Of a stretch of DNA of 5,702 nt, positions 4,790 through 5,702 are shown one piece after another. The position numbers were made by a program, and so were the translations under genes. The notes below the pieces were generated by a model. It was given only the letters and a program-made list of their open reading frames with translations. It made no database searches and was not told the DNA's origin. Position 1 is the stretch's first letter. The number at the start of each line of letters is the position of its first letter. The DNA is from Thermoplasmata archaeon (GTDB lineage Bacteria > Actinomycetota > Acidimicrobiia > Acidimicrobiales > Acidimicrobiaceae). The stretch covers positions 1 through 5,702 of the forward strand of contig JAKBHQ010000060.1 in assembly GCA_021836665.1 (NCBI GenBank), read 5' to 3'.

Positions 4790-4929
4790 CAGGTTAAATG
4801 ATGATGTCCTTTGTCTTCTTGAGGATGAAACGTATATCGAATCACCGAAACAATATTGGAATATATCAGGCGGTGAATATTTCCCTATTGATCCGGGTTT
4901 TTGTTCCTTCCTATCCGATATTCTTGCAC

Positions 4930-4981
4930 CTGAGACTATTTCGGGTGGGCTGCCAAAGGGCGGTTGTTCATCCAGTCTCAG
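4930..4981 (+). repeat. Perfect 8-bp inverted repeat just upstream of hypA
   Basis: CTGAGACT (4930-4937) pairs exactly with AGTCTCAG (4974-4981), enclosing 36 bases that include a possible small inner stem (GCC-AAAG-GGC). The structure would end only 13 bases before the hypA ribosome binding site, so it could act as a leader hairpin on the operon mRNA. There is no T-tract, so it is not a classical terminator. Confidence 0.45.
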
Positions 4982-5004
4982 AATCCTTGGGGGAAAGGAA
5001 ATTC

Positions 5005-5349
5005 ATGCACGAGTATGGAATAGCGGAGGAACTCGCCGTAGCGGTGAAGCGCGCTATTTCGGGTCATGGAGACAATCGCGTCGTTCGAATTGTTGTCGAG
5101 GCAGGGGCTGGCGCCCTAGAACATGGAAGTCTTGATTTGGCTTTTGCTCACGCGAGCGAGGGAACTAACTTTGCTAATGCAGAGCTGATTATCCAAAAAG
5201 CTGAGAGAATGTACCACTGTTTGGACTGCGGGATCGACTTCAGCAATTCTGACTCTCCTAGTGGAATCTGTCCAAGCTGCAAAAGCAGCGAAACCATATC
5301 AGCCCCTAGCCACGACATAACACTCAAATCAGTAGAAATTGAGGATTAA
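5005..5349 (+). CDS. hypA: Hydrogenase nickel metallochaperone HypA
   Basis: A 114-residue HypA/HybF protein, which delivers Ni(II), with HypB, to the large subunit of [NiFe]-hydrogenases in the cytoplasm. It starts with MHEYGIAEEL: the N-terminal Met-His-Glu is the nickel site (His2, Glu3). The zinc site is complete: Cys72, Cys75, Cys89 and Cys92 in a CxxC-x13-CxxC arrangement. The central part has the family pattern EHGSLDLAFAHASEGT followed by AELIIQ. Length matches the family (about 113-120). The ATG at 5005 is fixed by the need for His2 and by AAGGA at 4995-4999; the frame is open further upstream but that extension is not HypA-like. The gene ends 2 bases before the hydrogenase small subunit, so the two are surely co-transcribed and probably translationally coupled. 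hypB and the other maturation genes are not in the window. Confidence 0.95.
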   Translation: MHEYGIAEELAVAVKRAISGHGDNRVVRIVVEAGAGALEHGSLDLAFAHASEGTNFANAELIIQKAERMYHCLDCGIDFSNSDSPSGICPSCKSSETISAPSHDITLKSVEIED

Positions 5350-5351
5350 GC

Positions 5352-5702
5352 ATGGATTTGGACCGGCGCTCTCTGTTCAGCGGTGCCTTGAGACATCGCG
5401 GGTCGCAGCAAAACGAGAGTGAACAGCTCGCACTGAAACAGAAGTATCAGGAAAGACTCAAGGAGGTAGAGGCGATGGAACCGCTGAGCGGGCTTTCGCT
5501 GCCTGCACTTCTGGTTGAGCATCGCTTAAGCCGCCGCAATTTTATGATGTGGGCTTCAGCGATGACCGCCGCTTTGATGTTGCCGCCAGTGTTCGAAAAG
5601 CAAGTGGCAGAGGCTGCAACTTTGCTCAATCGTGTTCCCGTAATTTGGATTGAGGGGCAAGACTGCGCCGGAAACTCTGAGGCATTTATTCGGTCTGCCG
5701 GT
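5352..5702 (+). CDS. [NiFe]-hydrogenase small subunit, N-terminal part (runs off window)
   Basis: The first 117 codons of a uptake-type (group 1-like) [NiFe]-hydrogenase small subunit, the FeS electron-relay partner of the catalytic large subunit. Residues 60-79 form a Tat signal, SRRNFMMWASAMTAALMLPP, with a likely cleavage near AEA-A (86-89), so the folded heterodimer would be exported with cofactors inserted. The mature start RVPVIWIEGQDCAGNSEAFIRSA (94-116) is the conserved small-subunit opening that provides proximal-cluster ligands. Cys105 is present, but the second cysteine of the usual CxxC (as in ECTGCTE or ECTCCSE) is Asn108 (codon AAC). About 59 residues precede the Tat motif, longer than in typical HyaA or HoxK proteins, and start with another twin-arginine motif (DRRSLFSGAL, 4-13) without a hydrophobic stretch. 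Start: ATG at 5352 with GAGG at 5341-5344, 7 bases upstream. The large subunit should lie beyond the right edge. Confidence 0.93.
   Translation, partial: MDLDRRSLFSGALRHRGSQQNESEQLALKQKYQERLKEVEAMEPLSGLSLPALLVEHRLSRRNFMMWASAMTAALMLPPVFEKQVAEAATLLNRVPVIWIEGQDCAGNSEAFIRSAG

Follow-up and report, generated by a model that had tools for sequence, protein, structure and literature searches.

What holds the proximal iron-sulfur cluster of a [NiFe]-hydrogenase when one of its four cysteines has been replaced by asparagine, and does the replacement change the cluster? The question is raised by a 5,702-nucleotide stretch of DNA, contig JAKBHQ010000060.1 (hereafter the window), which ends inside a hydrogenase small-subunit gene, so that 117 of 429 residues are present (open reading frame, ORF, 5352-5702, + strand). 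Positions 5661-5690 read GAC TGC GCC GGA AAC TCT GAG GCA TTT ATT; in the frame set by the ATG at 5352, this translates as D-C-A-G-N-S-E-A-F-I. The proximal-cluster loop D-C-A-G-N-S-E (residues 104-110; 5661-5681, + strand) contains Cys105, and the AAC at 5673-5675 (+) encodes Asn108 at the position of the second proximal-cluster cysteine. Direct reading and alignments both confirm this register, which an earlier sequence-only reading of the window (the initial annotation) had proposed. The exchange is real, is common to whole families of such hydrogenases, and has already been reported.

The 117 residues in the window are identical to those of a full-length homolog (L001:6340-7629) on an actinobacterial contig from a metagenome-assembled genome (MAG), which matches the window at 99.49% DNA identity across all 5702 bases and supplies the complete 429-residue small subunit together with the whole operon. 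The complete protein scores 434.4 bits against TIGR00391 in NCBIfam (cut-off 179.5) and exceeds the cut-offs of PF14720 and PF01058 in Pfam; from the 117-residue fragment alone, Pfam yields just a weak twin-arginine translocation (Tat) match of 17.1 bits against a cut-off of 22.7. AAC at codon 108 and the DCAGNSE loop are found in all ten of the closest loci (L001-L010, of which L002 and L003 are named Acidimicrobiaceae MAGs). These loci were assembled separately, and a sequencing error is therefore as good as excluded. A cysteine codon (TGC or TGT), which the initial annotation had named as the finding that would overturn its reading, stands in none of the ten. Asn108 is thus neither a sequencing error nor the mark of a decayed gene. 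A more distant locus from Chloroflexi, L011, reads DCCGNTE at the same loop.

The distribution of this residue was surveyed by aligning position 108 across relatives, as the initial annotation had suggested. Each of three protein searches lists the best 120 of 3452, 4061 and 7342 matches, respectively, and the resulting 391 rows consist of the top-ranked relatives of three queries, together with selected references, rather than a random sample; the counts of Asn, Cys and Asp are therefore not natural frequencies. In a 271-row alignment, 148 small subunits have C-N-C-C at the four proximal positions, 113 have C-C-C-C and 10 have C-D-C-C. This alignment excludes 16 of the 30 loci L017, L018 and L038-L065, in which the motif filter gave no suitable ORF, as well as L012 (small-subunit gene split over two frames), L016 and L019-L037. 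When the 120 rows of the L011-based search are included, position 108 is Asn in 266 of the 391 rows, Cys in 114 and Asp in 11, with no other combination: Ala, Gly, Ser and Thr occur in none, and the other three proximal cysteines (Cys105, Cys205 and Cys239) are invariant. Among the best 120 relatives of L011 listed, 118 have Asn, one Cys and one Asp, although such single-row exceptions could be assembly errors. The residues interchange between close relatives. P0343, which has Cys, shares 87% identity with the Asn-bearing P0354, and their proximal surroundings hardly differ; P0350, with Asp, shares 83% identity with P0304, with Asn.

In a FastTree phylogeny of the 391 rows, built without the trait column, the query falls in a 131-row clade (Shimodaira-Hasegawa-like support 99) with Asn in 124 rows and Cys in seven. 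Asn108 is thus typical of a clade and not unique to this gene, as the initial annotation had suspected. The seven Cys rows, which read DCAGC, are placed beside Asn rows and share the clade's other letters. L011 belongs to a separate clade of 121 rows (119 Asn, one Cys, one Asp) with named members mostly from Chloroflexota, from which we would guess the label group 1f. At L001 position 176, Cys is also present in most of the L011 clade, and L011, P0354 and related rows have Asp in the loop that follows the proximal Cys205 (CAFDGG in the rows shown; L001 position 208), where the window's protein has Tyr. Seven state changes are counted on the 391-row tree, five of them forced by well-supported branches for the Asn label, and four were counted on an earlier tree of 130 of the 271 rows, which excludes the fragment P0004 (retained in the counts and in the 391-row tree); these numbers are rough because the trees contain long branches and FastTree itself cautions about joins.

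Asparagine at the second proximal position has been in print since 2014 (PMC4070099) and 2016/17 (PMC5364354); here and below, published descriptions are given from parts of the papers cited. Nostoc punctiforme HupS is listed with Asn at this position (Yonemoto 2014, PMC4070099). Mohammadi 2016/17 (PMC5364354) describes Asn in place of one of the four proximal cysteines in HupS of Methylacidimicrobium (mesophilic verrucomicrobial methanotrophs), Asn or Asp in group 1f of Roseiflexus, Geobacter and Frankia, and Asn in group 2a. The descriptions of the cluster itself conflict: all three clusters of HucS, the small subunit of Huc, are assigned as [3Fe-4S] (PMC10017518), whereas the proximal cluster of the heterocyst (Nostoc) HupS is reviewed as a [4Fe-4S] cluster coordinated by a single Asn in addition to three Cys (PMC6616624).

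We take the enzyme to be a group 1 H2-uptake [NiFe]-hydrogenase of an Acidimicrobiia-type actinobacterium, located in the periplasm, anchored in the membrane and linked to cytochrome b. Its large subunit would split H2 at an ordinary [NiFe] site, and electrons would pass to a proximal cluster that has Cys105, Cys205 and Cys239 as ligands and Asn108 at the fourth position. From there they would travel through an ordinary medial [3Fe-4S] cluster (three Cys and Pro332) and an equally ordinary distal [4Fe-4S] cluster with a His ligand, reaching cytochrome b and then quinone. By analogy, we infer that the proximal cluster is somewhat more likely to be [3Fe-4S], with Asn108 alongside it, unligated or weakly interacting (probability roughly 0.53), than an Asn-ligated or open-site [4Fe-4S] cluster. 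The preference is given because Huc, a CxGN enzyme with a high-resolution structure, has been assigned in this way. In its PDB entry, HucS has the loop GGACSGNTM, which contains C-x-G-N. Several points weigh against this reading. Nostoc HupS, with its described [4Fe-4S] cluster (PMC6616624), has Asn in the same place according to the 2014 table (PMC4070099), and HofK of group 1h is described as retaining a [4Fe-4S] cluster that is ligated by Asp at the equivalent position (PMC5364354). Huc is a distant relative (27% identity over the aligned part) with a different distal ligand. The restriction of position 108 to Asn, Cys and Asp, with no drift to Ala, Gly, Ser or Thr, suggests that the side chain has some role, although this argument is weak because Pro332, which is non-ligating, is equally invariant (76 rows). 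Cys176, which this protein and 143 of the 266 Asn-type rows carry, is a further point against it, and our search of the open-licence PMC literature found no coordinates, spectra or redox potentials for group 1 enzymes of the Asn type.

In the strongest rival reading, the proximal cluster is a [4Fe-4S] cluster whose fourth iron is bound by Asn108 (3Cys1Asn), a role that Asp has in group 1h. Asn is a neutral and weak cluster ligand, which speaks against such an arrangement, as does the [3Fe-4S] assignment of Huc with its identical C-x-G-N motif (PMC10017518). On the other side, group 2a has been spoken of as having Asn coordination to 4Fe4S (PMC5364354), and two Alteromonas macleodii HynS variants in which the second proximal Cys was exchanged, C81D and C81N, both built on a previously modified background ('G1'), were active in a whole-cell H2-evolution screen, C81N retaining measurable H2 evolution (PMC4070099). 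The interchange of Asn, Asp and Cys on one scaffold, as in the 87% identical pair above, is also consistent with a ligating residue. Because of the Nostoc description, the Asp-ligated relative in group 1h and the restriction of the position to three residues, we hold this rival to be a serious contender at somewhat less than even odds. The initial annotation had predicted a different cluster coordination; that prediction is likely to hold, by analogy with HucS (published as [3Fe-4S]), Nostoc HupS (described as Asn-ligated) and HofK (described as Asp-ligated).

It is improbable that another residue (Asp104, Glu110, Cys176 or Glu164) serves as the fourth ligand, even in this protein alone. Asp104, which adjoins Cys105, and Glu110 had both been put forward in the initial annotation, and both fail on conservation as general or obligate ligands. 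Among the 266 Asn-type rows, residue 104 is Asp in 206, Ser in 54, Ala in five and Thr in one (60 departures), and residue 110 is Glu in 253, Met in 12 and His in one (13 departures), Glu110 also occurring in Cys-type rows. A substitute cysteine, which the initial annotation had raised as an objection to its own reading, is not conserved in the Asn-type set. Leaving aside the known ligands, the columns with Cys in at least 20 of these 266 rows are 176 (143 rows), 193 (77), 32 (69) and 68 (22), and columns 32 and 68 lie before or in the Tat signal. Cys176 is present in the window's protein (full sequence from L001) and in the L011-clade rows shown, but it is another residue in 123 of the 266 rows, and a Cys is likewise found there in HyaA, in HoxK and in the seven DCAGC rows, all of which have the complete set of four proximal cysteines. 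In a smaller comparison, Cys176 was present in 17 of 134 rows, and position 32 was Cys in 48% of Asn rows versus 26% of Cys rows. Glu164 is conserved in 266/266 Asn-type rows, yet it would be no special replacement because it is also invariant in a mixed 76-row alignment that includes Cys-type rows; it aligns with a position of E. coli Hya that we take to be E76. The residues at which Asn rows differ most from Cys rows (101, 103, 104, 238 and 241, for example) mostly follow clade, and no coupling of Asn108 to second-shell residues is claimed, because the seven DCAGC rows retain the Asn-type E101, Q103, D104 and A238.

The idea that Asn108 stems from faulty sequencing or assembly, or from gene decay, for which the sole point is that the window ends just 27 bases past the codon, can be dismissed given the identical codon in ten loci, full-length ORFs, an intact operon and 266 Asn rows.

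The residue next to the first electron acceptor of the [NiFe] site helps set the catalytic bias of the enzyme and may affect its behavior toward oxygen. The potential of a [3Fe-4S] cluster is given as about 250 mV above that of a [4Fe-4S] cluster (PMC10017518), and the Asn form of this protein would therefore favor H2 oxidation. Either form of the cluster would probably raise the proximal potential and favor H2 oxidation over H2 production. More speculatively, the second proximal ligand may be an evolutionary redox switch in group 1 that flips among Cys, Asn and Asp on one scaffold. The Asn form would then give a periplasmic, cytochrome-b-linked enzyme a high-potential [3Fe-4S] cluster and a relay strongly biased toward oxidation, with no need for the [4Fe-3S] cluster that group 1d has; we consider this possible but rather unlikely. 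A role for Asn108 as an oxygen-tolerance device, suggested by the initial annotation, is not supported. The Methylacidimicrobium enzymes are HydDB group 1b with cytochrome b, and Methylacidimicrobium tartarophylax strain 4AC, whose sole hydrogenase is 1b, used H2 only below 40 uM O2, although the authors allow that expression, not the enzyme, may cause the limit (PMC6813726). The window adds one further Asn-type member, from an actinobacterial lineage, and natural Asn-type families with close Cys or Asp relatives (P0343/P0354, P0350/P0304 and the seven DCAGC rows) are ready-made comparison pairs.

The full small- and large-subunit genes, which the initial annotation had wanted for classification, are both available from L001. 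The large subunit carries the group 1 motifs L1 (AMRICGVCTGVH) and L2 (HSFDPCLACAVH), published as RICGVCTxxH and SFDPCLACxxH (PMC5364354). The small subunit has the features of membrane-bound uptake enzymes of group 1: a Tat signal, a C-terminal anchor helix (residues 372-412 in the predicted model) and a cytochrome b partner next in the operon (PF01292). The Tat signal peptide region spans residues 59-78 (LSRRNFMMWASAMTAALMLP; 5526-5585, + strand); its Pfam TAT_signal match is the below-cut-off one noted above, and Arg61-Arg62 is invariant in 76 rows. In actinobacterial members it is preceded by an N-terminal extension of about 50 residues (window 5352-5585 with the signal), which opens with a DRRSLF-type motif. 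In the window this second twin-arginine-like motif reads DRRSLFS, near the start of the extension (5361-5381, +; direct reading); it is similar in L005, P0003, P0005, P0010, P0035 and P0045, and is missing from the extension that the Sulfurimonas and Arcobacter proteins carry. The putative medial (Cys320, Pro332, Cys339, Cys342) and distal (His277, Cys280, Cys305, Cys311) ligands are ordinary and invariant in 76 rows, the assignment of residues to clusters being one that we presume from homology with known hydrogenases. A structure predicted from the 76-row alignment, with no cofactors, has a mean predicted local distance difference test score of 74.4 (below 50 at 277-296, 303-321 and 329-341) and a predicted template modeling score of 0.70.

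We read the protein as part of a cytochrome-b-linked H2-uptake [NiFe]-hydrogenase of group 1, probably HydDB group 1b. The 1b label is chosen because relatives bear it in print, namely those of Methylacidimicrobium (PMC6813726) and of an Arcobacter (PMC5037454). P0098 (Methylacidiphilaceae) and P0104 (Arcobacter) share the small-subunit clade of L001; the tree sequences themselves bear no HydDB label, and P0104 may or may not be the 1b-labelled Arcobacter enzyme. Other groups were rejected. The oxygen-tolerant group 1d (6Cys [4Fe-3S]) has two supernumerary proximal cysteines, as in HyaA and HoxK, where this protein has Gly107 and Gly210; group 1h requires Asp at the second proximal position (C-x-G-D); and group 2a matches at the C-x-G-N loop but not at the distal site, which is His277 (invariant in 76 rows) and not Gln.

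Upstream of the small subunit lies a gene for a HypA nickel chaperone (5005-5349, + strand, probable start Met 5005; PF01155, 64.4 bits, residues 70-181 of ORF 4798-5349), whose stop codon is separated by two bases from the ATG at 5352. In L001, the small subunit is followed 3' by the large subunit (PF00374), the b-type cytochrome, a HycI/HyaD-type protease, a weak, below-cut-off HypF_C_2-like match, HypC and a DUF6390 protein. Further upstream, the window has a divergent pair of a major facilitator superfamily transporter (PF07690; 1272-2696, -) and an HxlR-type regulator (PF01638; 2696-3286, +). An order-level genome search gave matches in 32 of 198 genomes, of which only G001 (100%) and G008 (78%) are close, the rest being 30-39% identical. 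An additional group 2a-like small subunit reading ACSGNTM is found in the related MAGs G010 and G008 (L017 and L018), which places two C-x-G-N hydrogenases of different groups within one genome. Elsewhere, a second Sulfurimonas small subunit beside a group 1 operon (L013 5664-6569) reads C-N-G-N (TCNGNTH), and the Sulfurovum mangrovi plasmid hydrogenase small-subunit gene that is split over two frames (L012, ~8001-9240) has no row in the gene table, which is incomplete but does include the large subunit and cytochrome b.

The known systems closest to the window's enzyme include the group 1b hydrogenases of Methylacidimicrobium: P0098, named as Methylacidiphilaceae, has the DCAGNSE loop, shares 60% identity and belongs to the query clade. 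It differs from them in host phylum and in the actinobacterial N-terminal extension with its second RR motif, the isolates being compared by their descriptions only. The group 1f-type enzymes of Roseiflexus, Geobacter and Frankia and the L011 clade likewise have Asn or Asp in the same place. Huc of Mycobacterium smegmatis (group 2a) has C-S-G-N at its proximal loop, but HucS is 27% identical over the aligned part and has a distal Gln (Q-T-G-C) in place of His277. Nostoc HupS has Asn in the same position (PMC4070099), whereas cyanobacterial Hup is described as having no signal peptide (PMC6616624). HofK of group 1h (PDB 5AA5) also has a non-Cys residue at this position; C. necator HofK at L015 4963-6018 is annotated HypE in the plasmid record, yet it is a full-length identical match to 5AA5 chain A. 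Unlike the window's protein, HofK has Asp (GCDGDSV) and lies on a distant branch, and group 1h enzymes are described as having no Tat signal (PMC5364354).
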